64,000 bases of DNA from an uncultured Hyphomicrobiales bacterium (GTDB lineage Bacteria; Pseudomonadota; Alphaproteobacteria; Rhizobiales; Devosiaceae). Position numbers and translations under genes: made by a program. This document shows, piece by piece, positions 19,578-30,270 of the stretch (position 1 is its first letter; every line of letters starts with the position of its first letter). The notes beneath the pieces were generated by a model, which did no database searches, was not told where the DNA came from, and saw nothing but the letters and a program-made list of their open reading frames with translations. The DNA is taken from positions 1-64,000 of the forward strand of contig CAIMLX010000267.1 of assembly GCA_903842455.1 (NCBI GenBank), written 5' to 3'.

Positions 19578-22271
19578 TTGCAGTCTCTGCCTCGAGTCAT
19601 GATGCGCGCTGGCGCGACATTGCTTCGGCCCACGGTGGCCCCGGCAGTAGTCATCCTGCTCGTCATGCTTGCAGTGGCGTGGTTTGCCGCGGCGCAGAAC
19701 CAGGCAGTGTACGACCAGCGGATCCGCTCGGACGTCCTGAAGGAAGTCAGCGTCATCCGCGCCAAGCTGGAAGGCAATATCAGCGGCAACATCCAGCTGG
19801 TGCGCGGGCTGGTGGCGGTGATCGCCACCGAACCGCAGATGACGCAGCAACGGTTTTCCGATTTGGCGCGGAAGCTGTTTTCGGAGCACTCCCAGCTGCG
19901 CAATGTCGCCGGTGCGCCTGATCTCATCGTCCGGCTGATGCACCCGCTCGAGGGCAACGAAAAGGCTATCGGACTCGACTACCGGACCAACGCGGCGCAA
20001 CGCGAGGCTACCCTACGGGCGCAGCAGACCGGCCAGATGGTGCTAGCAGGTCCGGTCGACCTGGTGCAGGGCGGCCGGGGGTTCATCGGGCGGTTTCCGG
20101 TGATCATCGGCGAGGCCCGGTATCAGCAGTTCTGGGGCGTGGTGTCGGCGGTGGTCGACGAACAACTGCTCTACGACGACAGCGGGCTCTCCGACCCTGA
20201 CCTTGGCATCGATATCGCCATCTCGGGCGTCGACGGCCGCGGGCGCGAGGGCAAGCAGTTCTATGGCGACGCCGCCGTACTGGACAATCGCCCGATCAAC
20301 GCCAGCGTGGTGCTGCCGAACGGCGAATGGATCATCTCGGCAGTGCCCAAGGGCGGCTGGCCGACGGTGGCGCCCGACAGCTGGGCGATCTGGGGCGGCT
20401 TCCTGGGGCTGGCGATCCTGCTGTCGGCGCCGATGTTCTTTGCCGGGCGGCTGATCGAGGAGCGGCAGCGCAACCTCGCGGTACTCCGCAGTCGTGAAGC
20501 CGAACTGCGCCGCCTGTCACGCCGCCTCGGCCTGGCGCTTGAAACGTCGCAGGTGGGCGTTTTCGAGCTTGACCTCGAAACCCGCGAGTTGTTGTGGGAC
20601 GATCGGGTGAATGCGCTCTACGGCCTGCCGCAAGACGGTGGGGAGCGCGGCTATGAACACTGGCGCAACGCGATTCACCCCGAGGACCTGCGACGGGCGG
20701 AGGAGGAATACCGGCTGGCCTGCGAGGTCACCGGCCAGTATCACTCGGAATACCGCATCATCACGCCGGCAGGGCTGGTCCGCAACGTCAGGGCCATCGG
20801 CACCGTCTACAAGGACCACGATTCAACGCCCAAGATGGTGGGCGTGAACTGGGACGTGTCGGCCGACGTGGCGCTCAACGAGAGCCTGAAGCGCTCCAAC
20901 CGGCTGAGCGAGGCGCGCAACTCGGAACTGGAGGCGGCCAAGGCGGCGATCGAGCACAACGCGCTGCACGATTCACTCACCGGCCTGCCGAACCGGCGCT
21001 ACCTCGACGACGTCCTGAAATCGCGGGCAGAGCATGCAGGGCGCAATGGCGGCACGCTGGCGCTGCTGCATATCGATCTCGACCGCTTCAAGCAGATCAA
21101 CGATACGCTGGGTCACGCGGCCGGCGATGCGATGCTGGTGCATGCGGCTTACACACTGAGCGCAAACTGCGGCCCGGATGACTTCGTGGCGCGGATCGGC
21201 GGCGACGAGTTCGTGGTGGTCTCGAACGTCAAGGATGGGGAAGCTGCGCTCGGGGCGCTGGCCGACCGGCTGATCGCGCGCATGCGGCTGCCCATCCTCT
21301 ACGAGGGGCACGAGTGCCGGTCTGGCATCTCTGTGGGCATCGCCTACGAGGAGGGGCGCAACCCCGATCCCAACCGCATCCTGATCAACGCCGATATCGC
21401 GCTCTACCGGGCGAAGAGCCGCGGCCGCAATCGTTACGAGTTCTTCACTTCGGCGCTGCAGGCCGAGGTGATCCGTACCAAGCGGCTGGCGGACGAGATC
21501 CTGCACGGGCTGGAAACCGACCAGTTCCTGCCCTGGTACCAGCCGCAGTTCGATGCCACGACGCTCGAGATCGTCGGGGTCGAGGCGCTGGCGCGCTGGC
21601 GGCACCCGGTCAAAGGCATCCTGCCGCCGGCGCATTTCCTCGACGTGGCGGAGGACCTCAATGTCGTCTCGAGCATCGACCGGCTGGTGCTGGAGAAGGC
21701 TCTCGTCGACTTCGCCGAGTGGGACCGGCTGGGGCTGGGGATTCCCAAGGTCGCGGTGAATGTCTCGGCCCGGCGGCTGCAGGATGAGCAACTCATCGCA
21801 TCGCTGAAGGGGCTGGCCTTCGAGCCAGGCAGGCTCGCCTTCGAACTGGTGGAGTCGATCTTCCTCGACGACACCGACGACATGGTCCGCTGGAACGCCG
21901 AGCAGATCAAGGAACTGGGCATCGATATCGAGATCGACGATTTCGGCACCGGTTATGCCTCGATCGTGTCGCTGATGAAACTGAAGCCGCGGCGGCTGAA
22001 GATCGACCGGCAACTGGTCTCGCCGATCGTGGTGTCGGCACAGCAACGGCGACTGGTGCAGTCCATCGTCGACATCGGCCGCTCGCTCGATATCGAGGTC
22101 GTGGGCGAGGGTGTCGAGACCATGGAACATGCCGCCATCCTGCGCGACCTCGGCTGCAAGGTTCTGCAGGGCTATGCCTTTGCCGCGCCGATGAGCGCCG
22201 AGGCGCTGTCCCGGTTCGTGGCCGAGCGCGGGTGGATGCCAGACAACACCAAGGCGCGGAAGCACGGCTAG
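19578..22271 (+). CDS. CHASE-PAS-GGDEF-EAL cyclic-di-GMP signalling protein
   Basis: Extracytoplasmic CHASE-like region, PAS, RIGGDEFVVVS and VEALARWRHP motifs. Confidence 0.9.
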   Translation: MQSLPRVMMRAGATLLRPTVAPAVVILLVMLAVAWFAAAQNQAVYDQRIRSDVLKEVSVIRAKLEGNISGNIQLVRGLVAVIATEPQMTQQRFSDLARKLFSEHSQLRNVAGAPDLIVRLMHPLEGNEKAIGLDYRTNAAQREATLRAQQTGQMVLAGPVDLVQGGRGFIGRFPVIIGEARYQQFWGVVSAVVDEQLLYDDSGLSDPDLGIDIAISGVDGRGREGKQFYGDAAVLDNRPINASVVLPNGEWIISAVPKGGWPTVAPDSWAIWGGFLGLAILLSAPMFFAGRLIEERQRNLAVLRSREAELRRLSRRLGLALETSQVGVFELDLETRELLWDDRVNALYGLPQDGGERGYEHWRNAIHPEDLRRAEEEYRLACEVTGQYHSEYRIITPAGLVRNVRAIGTVYKDHDSTPKMVGVNWDVSADVALNESLKRSNRLSEARNSELEAAKAAIEHNALHDSLTGLPNRRYLDDVLKSRAEHAGRNGGTLALLHIDLDRFKQINDTLGHAAGDAMLVHAAYTLSANCGPDDFVARIGGDEFVVVSNVKDGEAALGALADRLIARMRLPILYEGHECRSGISVGIAYEEGRNPDPNRILINADIALYRAKSRGRNRYEFFTSALQAEVIRTKRLADEILHGLETDQFLPWYQPQFDATTLEIVGVEALARWRHPVKGILPPAHFLDVAEDLNVVSSIDRLVLEKALVDFAEWDRLGLGIPKVAVNVSARRLQDEQLIASLKGLAFEPGRLAFELVESIFLDDTDDMVRWNAEQIKELGIDIEIDDFGTGYASIVSLMKLKPRRLKIDRQLVSPIVVSAQQRRLVQSIVDIGRSLDIEVVGEGVETMEHAAILRDLGCKVLQGYAFAAPMSAEALSRFVAERGWMPDNTKARKHG

Positions 22272-22327: not shown

Positions 22328-22681
22328 TCAGAACAGCTCGGCTTGGCCGTGGATGCCGTGCGTTGCGGTGCCGGACAGGGTCGGGACGCGCAGTTCGTCC
22401 AGCACGAGGCCAGACCAGATGTCGTCGTAGATCTCGGGCGGCGTGCCGGGTGGCAGCAGGGCGAACTGGCGGACGGCGTGGGCCATGTTTTGGGCGCGCT
22501 GCTCGATGCGATCCTGTCCCTGCAAGGCGTGGATGATCATCCGGGCGGCGATGCGGCGGGCCTCGTCGGCAGGAACCGACCGGTCACCAAGGATCTCGAG
22601 CGCCTGCGTCACTTCCTCGACCATGCCGGCGGTCTGCCGCGCCGTTTCATCGAGCTCACGCGCGAGCTTGTACAGAGACAT
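22328..22681 (-). CDS. Small protein divergent from cheD with a CheZ/CheT-like DxxxQ motif; putative CheY-P phosphatase
   Basis: MSLYKLARELDETARQTAGMVEEVTQ...MIIHALQGQDRIEQRAQNMAHAVRQFALLP; QD-xxx-Q helix resembles the CheZ QDLTGQ helix; located in the che locus. Alternative start 22714. Confidence 0.5.
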   Translation of the reverse strand: MSLYKLARELDETARQTAGMVEEVTQALEILGDRSVPADEARRIAARMIIHALQGQDRIEQRAQNMAHAVRQFALLPPGTPPEIYDDIWSGLVLDELRVPTLSGTATHGIHGQAELF

Positions 22682-22820: not shown

Positions 22821-23447
22821 ATGCTTTTCGAGGTCGCCCCAAGAATGGTCCTGCCGAGCGCGCTGCCCCCTGAATTCGACCGTGGGGTCGTCACAACGGT
22901 GCACCAGGGCGACTGTCTCGTGTCGGCCGAAAGCGACCTGACCTACTCCACGGTGCTCGGCAGCTGCATCTCCGCCTGCGTGCGCGACGTGGTCGCCAAT
23001 GTTGGTGGGATGAACCACTTCCTGCTGGCCGAGCAGTCCGGCTCTGCCAGGGACCGCTACGGCGCATCGGCCCGCTATGGCGCGTTCGCGATGGAGCAAC
23101 TGATCAACAAGGTGCTCACCCGCGGCACCGGCAAGAAATCCAACCTCGAGATCAAGGTGTTCGGCGGTGGCAAGATCAACGCCGCGCTCGACGACGTGGG
23201 CGCCAAGAACATCGACTTCGTGCGGCAGTTTCTCGCTGACGAAGGCTACGCAGTGGCCAAGGAAGACATGGGCGGCAGCTACGCTCGCCGGGTGATGTTC
23301 AAGCCGGCCTCCGGACGGGCGTTCGTGAAGCGGCTGGACAACACCGCCAACGCTTCGATCGCGAAGGAAGAACTGGCCGTGGCGGCGACCCGCCGCCAGG
23401 CCCTGGTCACCAAGCCGAAGGTCGAGGACGACATCGAACTCTTCTAG
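22821..23447 (+). CDS. cheD: Chemoreceptor glutamine deamidase CheD
   Basis: VVTTVHQGDCLVSAESDLTYSTVLGSCISACVRDVVANVGGMNHFLL, a CheD Cys/His active-site pattern. Confidence 0.93.
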   Translation: MLFEVAPRMVLPSALPPEFDRGVVTTVHQGDCLVSAESDLTYSTVLGSCISACVRDVVANVGGMNHFLLAEQSGSARDRYGASARYGAFAMEQLINKVLTRGTGKKSNLEIKVFGGGKINAALDDVGAKNIDFVRQFLADEGYAVAKEDMGGSYARRVMFKPASGRAFVKRLDNTANASIAKEELAVAATRRQALVTKPKVEDDIELF

Positions 23448-23565
23448 GCCGCACCCGGGCTTACCAAATACTTACCCGGCGCAGGACTCCTATACGCTTG
23501 ATTAACCATACCAAACCTACGGTGCGGGAAAGGGCCTGCCGGAGGCCCGCCGGAGCCTGTGATTC

Positions 23566-25065
23566 GTGCGCCGCCTAAGCGTTGCGCTCATTGCCAATCT
23601 TCTCTGGGGGCTCGCGGCGCTGCTTGCTGCGGGCAGCGTGATGGCATTCGGCATGACTCTGCTGGCGCTGTGTGTTTCGGCGCTGGGGTTCGTGGCGGCC
23701 TTTGCGGCCAGCATCATCATCGCTTCTCGTGCCGACAGGGGCTTCACTGACCGGTTGGCGGCTCTGGGGAACGCGGTTGGTCTCAAGTCGCAGGAGGCGA
23801 CCAGCGTCGAGGCGATCGTCGCCAGCCTCGGGCAGCGGCTGGAACGGGCCAATCAGTTCAAGGCGGCGTTCCATCGGCTCAGGCATCCCGCGATGGTGAT
23901 CGGCGCCGACGGCAAGCTCAGCGGGTTGACGGGCGGGGCCGAGGCCCTGGACCGCCGTGCGGTAGAAGGCAGCGACGCTGCCGACCTGCTTGGCGACGCC
24001 CACATTGCGGGTGACGGGATCGTTTCGGTCGGTCGGCATCGGTTCGTAGCCGAACGATATGAACTGAACGGCGGGCGGCGGCTGGTCGAACTGGAGCCTG
24101 CCGGCTACCACATCGCCGACGATGACTTCGACGCCTTCGTCACGGCGCTCCGGCAGGGCCGTACCGGCTTCCGCTTCGATCCATGGAGCCACCAGCACTC
24201 GCCCGCCCTCAAGGCGCTCGGCGAAGCGCTCGAAGCATTCGACCGGCCGATCCGGGCGCTGCAGCAGATCCTCGATGGCGCAGATGTCGATCCAGCGCTG
24301 CTGGCGGGGTCACTGGGCCTCGTCCCGCAGGTTCGGACGTTCCGCGACGCCATCGAAGAGATTGTTGCCGAGCGAGACGAGGCGATCGTGGCGCGAGACC
24401 TGCTGGAGGCCAAGATGGAGGCGATCCTGCGGGCCATCGACCGCTATCGTGCCAGCGTCACGTCGCTCGCCGAGCTGGCCGACCAGAGCCGCACTGGCCT
24501 CGTCGTTGCCGCGAGCGCGATCGGCAAGGGCCGGGACCGTACCCGGGTGGTGCGCGGGCTCGAGCGCGAAGCAGTGCAGATGGCGGCGGACGCGGCGCTG
24601 GCGGTACAGCGCAGCGGGGCGGCGGTCGATGGCGTCGGTTCGGCCACCAGCCAGATCGACAAGATGGTTTCCGCCATCGAGGATGTCAGCTTCCGCACCA
24701 ACCTGCTGGCGCTCAACGCTGCGGTCGAGGCGGCGCGCGCCGGCGAGAAGGGGGCGGGCTTTGCCGTGGTGGCGGCCGAGGTGCGGACACTGGCGCAGGC
24801 AACGCAGCAGGCAGCGCGGGAGATTCGCGCCCTGGTCGGCACCAGCCGGAAGAACTCCGACCAATCGGCGGCCGAAACGGCACACCTGAAAAATATACTG
24901 GCCGGTCTCGGTTCGCATTTAGAGAATCTAAGCAATGAGACCGAGATGATAGCCGGTGCGCTGGATGAGGGCGGTGGGGCAATTGCCCGCCTCGACAGCA
25001 ACGTCAACGCGGTCGGTACGGTCGCGGCCAAGGCGTTGCAGCTCCCGGCGCGCAAGGCCAACTGA
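23566..25065 (+). CDS. Methyl-accepting chemotaxis-type protein (two N-terminal TMs, PAS-like region, MCP signalling domain)
   Basis: [43 protein letters not shown] hairpin; GTG start. Confidence 0.85.
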
Positions 25066-25085
25066 GGCCGAACGGGGGACGTCGT

Positions 25086-25952
25086 ATGGAGCAGGGCGAA
25101 CTTGCCCTAAGCGATCGGGAATTCAACCGGGTCAAGGCCCGCGTTCATGCCGAAGCCGGCATTTCGCTTTCCGACGCCAAGCGCACACTGGTGATATCGA
25201 GGCTGGGCAAGCTGGTCCGCGGGCTCGGCCTCACTTCCTTCGACGCTTACCTCGATCACCTGGAGCGGGCCGGCACGCCGGCCGACGCGCAGGAGTTCGT
25301 CAACGCGCTGACCACCAACCTGACGCGGTTCTGGCGCGAGGATCACCACTTCGCGCACCTCAGGACCTACGTTGCGCAGCTGATGCAGCAGCGACCGCGC
25401 ATGGGGCTCAATGGCCGGCCGAAGCTTCGGATCTGGTCGGCAGGGTGCTCGACGGGGCAGGAGCCCTACACCATCGCGCTCGACCTGCTCGATGCGTTTC
25501 CGGAGCTGAGGCGCTGGGACTTCCGCATCCTCGCCACCGATATCGACACCAACGTCGTGGCCAAGGCCGCTGCCGGGGTCTATCCGGTGGGCGAGCTGAA
25601 CGGGCTCAGCCGCGAACGCTCGGACCTGTTCGAGGCCGCCGAGGCAGGGCAGGTCCGCATTCCCGCGGCGGCGCGCGACCTGGTTTCGTTCAAGCCGCTC
25701 AACCTCATTCACACGCCGTGGCCGATGCGCGGACCGTTCGATGCGGTGTTCTGCCGGAACGTAGCGATCTATTTCGACAAGAAGACGCAGGGGGAGTTGT
25801 TCGCCCGGCTCGGCGCGATCCTCGCGCCCGAAGGCTTCCTCTATATCGGTCACTCCGAAAACCTCGGGGCCGGCAGCGAGAACTTCCGTCTCGTCGGCAA
25901 GACCGTCTACCAGGCACGGGCGCAGCACATCAAGGCGAGGGACGCAGCATGA
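25086..25952 (+). CDS. cheR: Chemotaxis protein methyltransferase CheR
   Basis: ALTTNLTRFWREDHHFAHLR..IWSAGCSTGQEPYTIALDLLDAFPE..DAVFCRNVAIYFDKKTQ. Confidence 0.95.
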   Translation: MEQGELALSDREFNRVKARVHAEAGISLSDAKRTLVISRLGKLVRGLGLTSFDAYLDHLERAGTPADAQEFVNALTTNLTRFWREDHHFAHLRTYVAQLMQQRPRMGLNGRPKLRIWSAGCSTGQEPYTIALDLLDAFPELRRWDFRILATDIDTNVVAKAAAGVYPVGELNGLSRERSDLFEAAEAGQVRIPAAARDLVSFKPLNLIHTPWPMRGPFDAVFCRNVAIYFDKKTQGELFARLGAILAPEGFLYIGHSENLGAGSENFRLVGKTVYQARAQHIKARDAA

Positions 25953-26995
25953 GTATCAAGGTGCTGGTCGTCGATGATTCCGCGCTCATCCGCGAGGTGT
26001 TGTCGCGCGCACTCGGCAAGGATGGCGACATCCTGGTGATCGGCACGGCCGCCGACCCGATCGAGGCGCGCGAGAAGGTCAAGACGCTGAGCCCCGATGT
26101 CGTGACGCTCGACATCGAGATGCCCAACATGAACGGGCTGCAGTTCCTCGACAAGCTGATGCGGCTGCATCCGCTGCCGGTGGTGATGGTCTCGACCCTC
26201 ACCACGAAGGGGGCGAGCGAGACGTTGCTGGCGATGGAACTGGGCGCGGTGGATTTCGTCGCCAAGCCCAATGCCAGGCTGTCAGGCGGGCTCGAAGCCT
26301 TTGGCGAGAACCTGCGCCAGAAGGTGCGGGCCGCAGCCAACTCCGACGTGAAGGGCCGCGCCATGCGCGCCCCGCCCGTCAACGTACCGGTGCGGACGGC
26401 GGCGGCGCCGAAGGGCACGGTCATCGCCATCGGCGCCTCGACCGGCGGCGTGGAAGCCATCCGCGTGGTGCTTTCGGGCATGCCCGTCGATTGTCCGCCG
26501 ATCGTCATTGCCCAGCATATGCCTGCCGGCTTCACGACCCGGTTTGCGGGCCGGCTCGACGAGGTCACCGAACTGACGGTGGTCGAGGCCGAGGACCGGA
26601 TGCCGCTGCTGCCGGGCCACGCCTATGTGGCGCGCGGGGACTATCACCTGCGGGTCGAGCGCTCGTCGGGCCAGCTCAAGTGCCGGTTGGCACAGGACGA
26701 GCTCGCCTCGGGGCATCGCCCCAGCGTCGATGTGCTGTTCGAGTCGGTGGCCAAGACCGTCGGCCCGATGGCGGTTGGGGCGATCCTGACCGGGATGGGG
26801 CGCGACGGGGCCAGGGGCCTCAAGCTGATGCGCGATGCCGGTGCCTACACCGTGGGGCAGAGCCAGAGCTCGGCGCTGGTCTACGGCATGCCGCGCGTCG
26901 CGTTCGAAGAAGGCGCTGTGATGGAGCAGGCGCCAGTCGAAGCTATTGCCGCGCGCCTCGCCGCGGCCCTGACCCGGATACGATCGGCTGCATAG
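25949..26995 (+). CDS. cheB: Chemotaxis protein-glutamate methylesterase CheB
   Basis: Receiver domain VLVVDDSALIREVL plus methylesterase IGASTGGVEAIRVVLSGMP..AQHMPAGFT; ATGA overlap with cheR. Confidence 0.96.
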   Translation: MSIKVLVVDDSALIREVLSRALGKDGDILVIGTAADPIEAREKVKTLSPDVVTLDIEMPNMNGLQFLDKLMRLHPLPVVMVSTLTTKGASETLLAMELGAVDFVAKPNARLSGGLEAFGENLRQKVRAAANSDVKGRAMRAPPVNVPVRTAAAPKGTVIAIGASTGGVEAIRVVLSGMPVDCPPIVIAQHMPAGFTTRFAGRLDEVTELTVVEAEDRMPLLPGHAYVARGDYHLRVERSSGQLKCRLAQDELASGHRPSVDVLFESVAKTVGPMAVGAILTGMGRDGARGLKLMRDAGAYTVGQSQSSALVYGMPRVAFEEGAVMEQAPVEAIAARLAAALTRIRSAA

Positions 26996-27090
26996 CGCAT
27001 GATCGGATTGAGGGTTTGGTAACGGAATATCCTTAGGGTCCAGAGTGCGCGACCCGCGTATTTTCGGGCGGCTAGAAGGCTAGCGTAAAC

Positions 27091-27480
27091 ATGCCGAAGG
27101 CAAGTGCTGTCAGTGTGATGATTGTGGATGACCAGCAGTCGATGCGGGGAATCTGCAAGTACATCCTCACCCAGCTTGGGTTCACCAACATCGTCGAGGC
27201 CAAATCCGGCCGCGACGCGCTGGGCAAACTCGAAAAAAGCACCGTCGATCTCATCATTTCCGACTGGAACATGGAAGACATCGACGGGCTGACGCTGCTG
27301 CGCGTCATCCGCAAGCATCCCAAGACGCAGGGAATGCCGTTCATCATGGCCACCGGCCGCTCCGACAAGGAGCAGGTGAAGGAAGCGATCTCGTCGGGCG
27401 TGAACAACTACATCATCAAGCCGTTCGACGCCTCGACGATGAAGAAGCGCATCGAGGCTGTGATCGGCGTGCTGTCCTAG
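27091..27480 (+). CDS. cheY: CheY-like response regulator
   Basis: MIVDDQQSMRGICKYIL..DLIISDWNMEDIDGL..FIMATGRSD..NNYIIKPFD. Confidence 0.92.
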   Translation: MPKASAVSVMIVDDQQSMRGICKYILTQLGFTNIVEAKSGRDALGKLEKSTVDLIISDWNMEDIDGLTLLRVIRKHPKTQGMPFIMATGRSDKEQVKEAISSGVNNYIIKPFDASTMKKRIEAVIGVLS

Positions 27481-27512
27481 CGCACCGATACCGCACGAAC
27501 TCGTCTCAGACA

Positions 27513-27540
27513 GGCCGCCTCCGGGCGGCCTTCGTGCTTT
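27513..27540 (+). terminator. Terminator-like hairpin after cheY
   Basis: GGCCGCC-TCC-GGGCGGCC then TTCGTGCTTT. Confidence 0.6.
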
Positions 27541-27729
27541 CCGGGGCAGGGATGCAATCGATCACATCGGCGGAAACGCTGGGCTCCGGACGATTCTGGC
27601 GTAATCAGAAATTAATGACCGCTGCCTACAATTTGGGCATGGCTTTCGGGGGGAGGCCGGCCCCGCGCTTCGTCGTTCCTGGCCGGCATCGTCCCCTCAC
27701 ACAGTCCCAAACAGACCAACGAGGGTAGG

Positions 27730-30270
27730 ATGATGGCCGGTTTGCCCAAGCTGAAGATCGCGCAGAAACTGCCGCTCGCCATGGTGATTTCAGCGCTGCT
27801 GGTCAGCGCCGGGGTCGGCACGGCAAGCTACCTGATCGGCTCGAGCACTGTGGAACAGATGAGCATCCGGCAGATGCAGACCGTTGCCGGCGAGCGGGCC
27901 CAGGAGTTCCAGACCTTCCTCCGGACGATCGAGGCGGACGTCGTCAGTACCGCCAGCACCGATCTGGCGTTCGGCGCCGCGCGTGACCTCGCGGTGGCGT
28001 GGGGCTCGATGGGTATCGCCAAGCCGCCACTCGACCCGGTGGCCACGCTGCGTGGCAACTATATCGACTTCAATCCCAACCCGGCGGGGCAGCGGCAGTT
28101 GCTCGACACCCCGACAGGCGACGGCATCAAGAAGACCAGCTACGAGTTCCAGCACGTCAAGATCAACCCGATCTTCCGCACGCAGCTGGAGCGGCGCGGC
28201 TACGCCGACATGTTCGTCTTCGATACCAAGGGCAACCTGCTCTATTCGGTGATGAAGAACGACGACTTCGCGAAGAATTTCGCCGAGGGCAGCGAGATGG
28301 CCGACGGCGGTCTCGGCCGCGCCTATCGCGCCGCGCTGGCGCTCCCTGAAGCCGGGCAGGTGGCCTTCTCGGACATGGAAGTCTACGGCCCGGCCGGCGG
28401 GCCGGCGAGCTTTCTCGCCACCCCGATCTTCGATCCACGCAAGAAACTGGCTGGCGTCCTGGCGGTGCAGATGCCCGTCGCCGCCATCAACGCCATGATG
28501 CAGAACAAGGATAACCTCGGCCAGACGGGCGAAAGCTTCTTCGTCGGCGCGGACTATCTTATGCGGTCGGATTCGAGTTTCTCCGAGGCCGGGGACATCC
28601 TCGCCACCCGCTACGAAAACGCCGTCGTCGCGGCGGCGCTTGAGGGAGAAAGCAGCCAGGGGTCGACGGCCGACTATCGCGGCATGCCGATGATCGTCAC
28701 GGCAACTCCGGTGGAGTTCAACGGTGCCAAGTGGGCGATGGTCACCACCATTTCGGAAGCCGAGGCACTGGCTCCGGTCGCCGACATGCGCGACATGATG
28801 CTGGTGATCGGGGCAGGGCTGCTCGTGCTGGCTGCCGCGGGCGGGTGGCTGTTCTCGCGGTCGGTGACGCGGCCGATCAGCCGGCTCACGGGCACGATGG
28901 ATGCCCTCGCTGCTGGCAATCTCGAAGTCGAGGTGCGCGGCGCCGAGCGCTCCGACGAGATCGGCGCGATGGCCAAGGCCGTGCAGGTGTTCAAGGAAAA
29001 CGCCGGCAGGATGACGGAGATGACCGAGGGCGAGAGGGCGGCTTCGCTGCAGCGCCGGGTCGATCGCACGGCGATGATGGGACAGTTGCAGCAGGCATTC
29101 GGCGAGGTGGTGAATGCCGCGATCGCCGGGGACTTTTCGAAGCGGGTCGATGCCGACTTCCCGGATGCCGAACTCAACACGCTGGCCGGTTCCGTCAACG
29201 AACTGGTGGCGACGGTGGAACGCGGTCTGGGGGAGACCGGCGAGGTGCTGGCGGCGCTGGCGCATACCGACCTGACCCGGCGCGTCCGGGGTGACTATGA
29301 GGGCGCGTTCCTGCAGCTCAAGACCGACACCAACGCGGTTGCCGAGACGCTGGGGGAGATCGTCGTCGGGCTGCGGGATACGTCGCGCTCGCTGAAGACG
29401 GCGACCGGCGAAATCCTCTCGGGCGCGAACGATCTCTCCGAGCGCACCACCAAGCAGGCTGCCACCATCGAGGAAACATCCGCCGCGATGGAGCGGCTGG
29501 CCGGCACGGTGATCGCCAATGCCGAGCGTGCCAGCGACGCGAGCAGCACGGCGGCGGGCGTTACCCGCACGGCGGAGGAGGGCGGGGCGGTGATGCAGCG
29601 CGCCACGGAGGCGATGGAGCGGATCACGGCGTCGTCGGGCAAGATCTCCAACATTATCGGGATGATCGACGATATCGCGTTCCAGACCAACCTGCTGGCG
29701 CTCAACGCCTCGGTCGAAGCAGCGCGGGCGGGCGACGCGGGCAAGGGCTTCGCGGTCGTCGCCGTCGAGGTGCGCCGCCTGGCGCAGTCGGCGGCGAGTG
29801 CGTCGAGCGACGTGAAGGTGTTGATCGAGCAGTCGGGCGCCGAGGTCAGCGGCGGCTCGCGTCTGGTGCTCGAGGCGGCCAACAAGCTCGAGGCCATGCT
29901 GGTGGCGGCGCGCTCATCCAATGCGGTCATGCACGCAATTGCCAAGGCGAGCCGCGAGCAGGCCTCGGCCATCGAGGAAGTCAACGCCGCGGTGCGCCAG
30001 ATGGACGAGATGACCCAGCACAATGCTGCGCTGGTCGAGGAGACCAACGCTGCCATCGAGCAGACCGAGGCGCAGGCGGTTGAACTCGACCGCATCGTCG
30101 AGATCTTCCGACTGGTGGAGCACGATGCGGTCGCCGGCAAGGCGACGCGCAGCCCACCGGAGCCGGAGAAAGGTGGAATTAAGGCATTGCAGGCAAAGGT
30201 ACGTACTGCCGCCCGCTCCTACCTCAGCCGGGGCAGCGTGGCAGTCGACAAGGACTGGGCCGAATTCTAG
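27730..30270 (+). CDS. Methyl-accepting chemotaxis protein with large periplasmic sensor; C-terminal DWAEF pentapeptide
   Basis: N-terminal TM, large extracytoplasmic region, TM-HAMP, MCP hairpin [44 protein letters not shown]; ends AVDKDWAEF. Confidence 0.93.

Follow-up and report, generated by a model that had tools for sequence, protein, structure and literature searches.

The minus-strand open reading frame (ORF) at 22331-22681 of the window (the whole 64,000-nt stretch analysed, from an uncultured Hyphomicrobiales bacterium of the family Devosiaceae) encodes a 117-aa helical protein that, judged by profile comparisons, is homologous to the chemotaxis protein CheT, lies outside the curated CheT model and has its gene in reversed orientation. 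We consider it fairly likely (probability about 0.62) that this CheT-like protein is a divergent CheT homologue acting as a dimerising hairpin, in which D57 and Q61 would hydrolyse CheY-P and the C-terminal tail would dock on a partner, ending the signal via the CheY encoded beside CheA and CheS. Its CheY-P phosphatase activity is likely but unproven. An earlier note had proposed a CheZ/CheT-like CheY-P phosphatase at this position; the CheT-like part of that interpretation is supported, and the CheZ part does not reach beyond the motif.

The gene and its che locus

The gene of about 117 codons divergent from cheD that the earlier note had described is present as claimed, and occupies 22328-22681 on the minus strand with its stop codon (22328-22330) included. 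The encoded protein begins with MSLYKLARELDETARQTAGM, continues with HALQGQDRIEQRAQNMAHAV and ends in ELF; within it, the sequence ALQGQDRIEQRAQNMAHAV carries D57 and Q61, spaced four residues apart. An alternative upstream ATG would give 128 aa, but conservation favours the start for 117 aa, M1 being invariant across the homologues. The neighbours are cheD, MCP, cheR, cheB and cheY at 22821-27480, in agreement with the che locus named in the earlier note. The features, in window positions, are the following:

22331..22681, minus strand: CheT-like coding sequence, 117 aa (ORF and translation, homologues in relatives, conserved start position)
22589..22678, minus strand: helix 1 of the predicted hairpin, residues 2-31, with conserved E9, L10, E12, T13 and Q16 (AlphaFold2 and invariant columns)
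22460..22570, minus strand: helix 2 of the predicted hairpin, residues 38-74, bearing D57 and Q61 (AlphaFold2 model)
22496..22528, minus strand: motif ALQGQDRIEQR, residues 52-62 (invariant columns in 45 homologues; in register with the CheT DXXXQ)
22511..22513 and 22499..22501, minus strand: codons of D57 and Q61, respectively
22331..22348, minus strand: C-terminal tail GQAELF, residues 112-117, proposed docking peptide (F117 invariance, low pLDDT, tail likeness)
22821..23447, plus strand: cheD, the divergent neighbour, with C-terminus DDIELF, codons 23427-23444 (Pfam CheD, E=2.4e-25)
23566..25065, plus strand: MCP of the same che cluster (Pfam MCPsignal)
25086..25952, plus strand: cheR (Pfam CheR)
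25949..26995, plus strand: cheB (ORF; homologous to cheB in relatives)
27091..27480, plus strand: cheY, placed like rhizobial cheY2 and a possible substrate (Pfam Response_reg; gene order compared with the rhizobial genome L124)

Wherever both genes were placed (92 loci), the CheT-like gene stands head-to-head with cheD, mostly across a gap of 140-300 bp, and cheR, cheB and cheY come next on the cheD side. Among the loci with at least 8 kb of flank, cheA lies on the far side of the CheT-like gene, on the cheD strand, in 54 of 64. Based on these placements, the usual Devosiaceae order is cheA, the CheT-like gene reversed, and cheD-(mcp)-cheR-cheB-cheY. The window's genome has the cluster split between window positions 22821-30270 and contig C238 (L243); the CheT-like gene and cheA are adjacent in most relatives. 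Contig C238 carries the order STAS(cheS-like)-cheY-cheA-cheW, in which the cheW label comes from position and length only. A gene for a CHASE-PAS-GGDEF-EAL protein (19578-22271, plus strand) is convergent with the CheT-like gene, and a similar gene occupies that spot in only three relatives' loci (L026, L030 and L036). No promoter or terminator was detected when the region between the divergent CheT-like gene and cheD was scanned.

Within the genus, 18 of 19 genomes encode a homologue of the CheT-like protein, as do 5 of 6 other genera sampled in the family; the closest named relatives are Devosia species (72-78% identity), which marks the window as DNA of a Devosia-like bacterium of this family. 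A tblastn search of a plasmid collection gave no match. In one genome of the genus (L017/L024, G014), the gene is split over two frames, covering residues 1-82 and 62-117, by either a frameshift or a sequencing error. An alignment of 45 homologues, which reach down to 48% identity and were collected partly by motif pattern, has no substitutions at residues Q54, Q56, D57, R58, Q61 and R62; therefore, the unbiased set of 21 sequences from a whole-genome search, in which the same residues are invariant down to 36% identity, is the cleaner test of conservation. Columns E9, L10, E12, T13 and Q16 of helix 1, as well as F117, are also invariant in the 45-homologue alignment. The motif QD-RIE-Q pointed out in the earlier note is real, and the lack of conservation that the note had named as grounds for dismissing its proposal did not materialise, D57 and Q61 being invariant in both sets. 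A lone DxxxQ in one 117-aa protein would be weak evidence, but its conservation across these alignments is not.

Comparison with CheT and CheZ

A review (PMC12654446) describes an Agrobacterium fabrum cluster of cheS (atu0515), cheY1 (0516), cheA (0517), cheB (0519), cheY2 (0520), cheD (0521) and cheT (0522), and a Sinorhizobium meliloti CheT that has a DXXXQ motif, was modelled as CheZ-like and enhances the dephosphorylation of only one of two CheYs. Using an HMM built from rhizobial CheTs alone against 2,162 ORFs (the window, L112 and 18 Devosiaceae loci), we recovered 19 Devosiaceae proteins, the window copy included, as the top 19 (E 1e-4 to 0.08), with all other ORFs ranking below. Single-sequence scores to CheT are weak (9.9 bits for the window copy). 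The profile-profile comparison of the CheT-like family with CheT scored 41, against shuffled controls that never exceeded 18.3 and a reversed profile at 13, and its alignment sets D57 and Q61 on the D and Q of CheT and the ELF on its FDFF/ELF. Two sequences are intermediate. One is the rhizobial CheT L147 (ALQGFDHIEQK...GDYELF); the other, L112 (ALQAEDRIRQR...EIELF), belongs to a different family of the order, and its gene is divergent from a cheD. Since the HMM ranking, the profile-profile score and the intermediates, three independent looks, agree, they argue for homology to CheT. With the motif masked, the profile score was 29, with an alignment over nearly the whole CheT-like protein; with motif and tail masked, it fell to 18, the null level. 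The case for homology therefore leans on the motif and the tail, with weaker full-length support.

Against the NCBIfam CheT model NF047973 (curated cut-off 200 bits), the CheT-like protein gave no hit and none of 41 relatives passed the cut-off; the divergent rhizobial CheT L147 also falls below it (61.9 bits). The small gene that ends the series cheB-cheY-cheD-small gene in L124 is CheT by the same model (215.6 bits), and this series agrees with the published order cheB-cheY-cheD-cheT. Searches of the CheT-like protein against Pfam, NCBIfam and PDB sequences returned sub-threshold noise and no significant match.

AlphaFold2 predicted a hairpin with helices at residues 2-31 and 38-74 (mean pLDDT 85.5) and D57 and Q61 on helix 2; residues 109-117, with pLDDT below 50, form a tail predicted to be disordered. 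A remote homologue was also predicted as a hairpin, at lower confidence (74.6). The earlier note had named the lack of a four-helix or hairpin fold as a ground for refutation, and on this point the predicted hairpin speaks in its favour. In a Foldseek comparison of the model with the PDB, the matches were generic helical hairpins (best E 0.78), and no CheZ was among the matches listed. The predicted hairpin fits CheZ and CheT and is not diagnostic of them. Generic hairpins, the weakness of DxxxQ as a motif and the absence of any Pfam, NCBIfam or PDB sequence match are what a small helical protein unrelated to CheT and CheZ, with a chance DxxxQ, would give. This explanation is highly improbable: it is largely refuted already by the CheT HMM ranking (top 19 of 2,162 ORFs) and by profile scores far above those of shuffled profiles, and the conserved che location also speaks against it.

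The CheT-like protein resembles CheT (S. meliloti; A. fabrum Atu0522; NF047973) in its small size (117 versus about 120-130 aa), its conserved DXXXQ in the second helix, an L-x-x-L/M-rich C-terminal helix and an acidic-aromatic tail. Both genes are cheD-adjacent in the same kind of cluster, cheS-cheY1-cheA-...-cheB-cheY2-cheD; in Devosiaceae the location is borne out by the cheD (92/92) and cheA (54/64) placements, with cheS, cheY, cheA and cheW elsewhere in the window's genome. The two differ in the motif (QDRIEQR versus GIDLAVQK), in the tail (mostly ELF/DLF in Devosiaceae, FF in CheT) and in orientation: cheT lies downstream of cheD, whereas the CheT-like gene is transcribed against cheD, and a same-strand arrangement was found in none of the 92 loci. 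The CheT half of the earlier reading is thus upheld by profile searches in both directions, the motif register, the tail, the hairpin and the location in the che cluster.

With CheZ (PF04344; e.g., that of Azorhizobium), the CheT-like protein shares QD-x-x-x-Q, often followed by R, in a helix, and an acidic flexible C-terminus (PMC7750401). It is roughly half as long, and no significant sequence, profile or fold match to CheZ was obtained. The Pfam CheZ model (PF04344) did not match, and an alphaproteobacterial CheZ profile scored 18.9, within the maxima of the shuffled (22.9) and reversed (24.9) controls; the shuffled null was taken on trimmed alignments, since gappy columns distort it. Despite this null-level score, the two motifs fall in register, and D57 and Q61 have the four-residue spacing of the catalytic D and Q of CheZ. 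A direct relationship to CheZ was rejected as unproven, so that of the CheZ half of the earlier proposal only the motif-level likeness stands, given the absence of a Pfam match and of CheZ among the Foldseek matches listed, and a profile score no better than controls.

A Pfam search of the window's genome detected no CheZ over the cut-off. The statement in the earlier note that Alphaproteobacteria mostly lack CheZ holds for this genome and needs trimming as a generality, because the Pfam CheZ model finds a match in 71 of the 191 alphaproteobacterial genomes sampled. CheC, CheX and FliY also dephosphorylate CheY, and CheC works with CheD; their fold is unrelated to that of the CheT-like protein, and their active site is of the E/N type. 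The window's genome encodes a CheC-like phosphatase (L245:5611-6600 on contig C184; Pfam CheC 25.5 bits) apart from the CheT-like gene, within a third che-like cluster having its own CheA, CheB and CheR. In view of this protein, the idea of the CheT-like protein as the sole phosphatase of the genome was rejected.

A receptor-fused module and a shared tail

With a score of 59 (null maximum 18-23), the best profile match of the CheT-like protein was a module at the C-terminus of receptor-like (MCP) proteins from alphaproteobacteria. The module, LQFQDRxxQRLEN ... TLGEMRxRF ... DDIELF, lies behind the MCP signalling domain of proteins mostly 350-550 aa long (e.g., L161 and L215), and is clear in about twenty of 241 sampled alphaproteobacterial genomes. 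Proteins of this kind were noticed in L113, L114, L115, L120, L154-L162 and L215-L240. It shares the motif, an xLxExR helix and the tail with the CheT-like protein, which stands alone, whereas the module is fused to the MCP signalling domain. Apart from MCPsignal and related MCP models, Pfam and NCBIfam have no model that recognised it, and a literature search for CheZ-fused receptors found nothing relevant. Compared with the CheZ profile, the module gave a significant score (41 versus a null maximum of 18), so the chain CheZ - receptor module - CheT-like protein - CheT is supported link by link. The second chemotaxis cluster of the window's genome apparently has a related module too: on contig C32, a 618-aa ORF (L206; L244:3715-5571, minus strand) close to cheB, cheR and an additional cheA contains MALQVGDATRQRVEH, followed by YTMDMERR and the tail SLDDLLF.

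The tail also recurs on CheD, which ends in xIELF in 77 of the 78 Devosiaceae loci counted and in IEFF in most CheT-bearing rhizobia, whose CheT mostly has an FF- or AF-type tail. The conserved CheD C-terminus IELF/IEFF is seen in the window (23427-23444) and in the CheDs of L025-L104, L112, L124 and L133-L153. The CheT-like protein, CheT, CheD and the receptor modules thus end in the same kind of tail. E. coli CheZ binds CheY via its C-terminal peptide, and the alphaproteobacterial CheZs sampled mostly end in a DDIDALLASFD-like sequence. Most simply read, the ELF tail would be a peptide for docking on CheY or on some other shared partner. The parallel tails of CheD and the CheT-like protein or CheT, together with the head-to-head arrangement in 92/92 loci, could also mean that the protein is a partner or competitor of CheD at one docking site, tuning CheD with no CheY-P hydrolysis, as an analogue of the CheC-CheD pair. 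We regard this as improbable, since the tail, compared alone and apart from cheD adjacency, is also found on receptor-like proteins, and the invariant D and Q would be unexplained. As a broader proposal, to which we give about even odds, CheT, the Devosiaceae protein and the C-terminal module of soluble receptor-like proteins may form one unrecognised family of DXXXQ phosphatase modules, the receptor version providing the link to CheZ. A [D/E]-x-[D/E]-[L/F]-F docking peptide common with CheD would then let proteins of termination and of adaptation share one site on their partner, and some bacteria would have the phosphatase built into a receptor.

Proposed action and significance

In CheZ, the Q positions the attacking water and the D contacts the active-site lysine of CheY. 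If the CheT-like protein works as CheZ and CheT do, D57 and Q61 on helix 2 of its small helical hairpin, which probably dimerises, would form a DXXXQ site in which Q61 positions the water for hydrolysis of the CheY aspartyl-phosphate and D57 contacts the lysine. The flexible ELF tail would probably dock on a partner common to CheD, most simply a CheY, and raise the local concentration. The substrate of S. meliloti CheT is reportedly CheY1, the phosphate sink. The CheY at 27091 occupies the CheY2 position of the rhizobial cheB-cheY-cheD order, and the positional counterpart of CheY1 is the CheY on contig C238; hence, the latter, not the 27091 CheY that the earlier note had put forward as partner, is the first candidate substrate. 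Chemotaxis signal termination would thereby be aided in this CheZ-less genome, most likely via faster decay of the CheY beside CheA and CheS.

Points against the phosphatase reading are the missing NF047973 hit, the weak single-sequence CheT scores, the null score with motif and tail masked, the orientation opposite to cheD, the lack of CheZ among the fold matches listed and the additional CheC-like candidate phosphatase. D/Q mutants of CheT reportedly behave unlike the deletion; hence the alternative that the CheT homologue acts mainly in adaptation, binding CheR (or CheB/CheD) and coupling methylation to the state of CheY, with weak or no phosphatase activity in vivo. The gene sits among cheD, cheR and cheB, and helix 1 (E9, L10, E12, T13 and Q16) is as strongly conserved as the motif helix, which suggests a further interface; S. 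meliloti CheT forms a complex with CheR (PMC12654446). A pure scaffold would have no need of an invariant D57 and Q61, and the detectable similarity to CheT lies mostly in the motif and tail. We therefore hold this role to be rather unlikely, and favour the CheT-type phosphatase.

Many alphaproteobacteria are without CheZ, their means of CheY-P signal termination are only partly known, and the description of CheT is recent. A divergent CheT that no current protein model captures indicates that annotation underestimates how widespread CheT-type termination is. It may close what looks like a gap in the resetting of chemotaxis in these bacteria and connect several look-alike signal-termination modules, and the tail held in common with CheD and the receptor-fused module ties signal termination to adaptation in a concrete way that can be tested.
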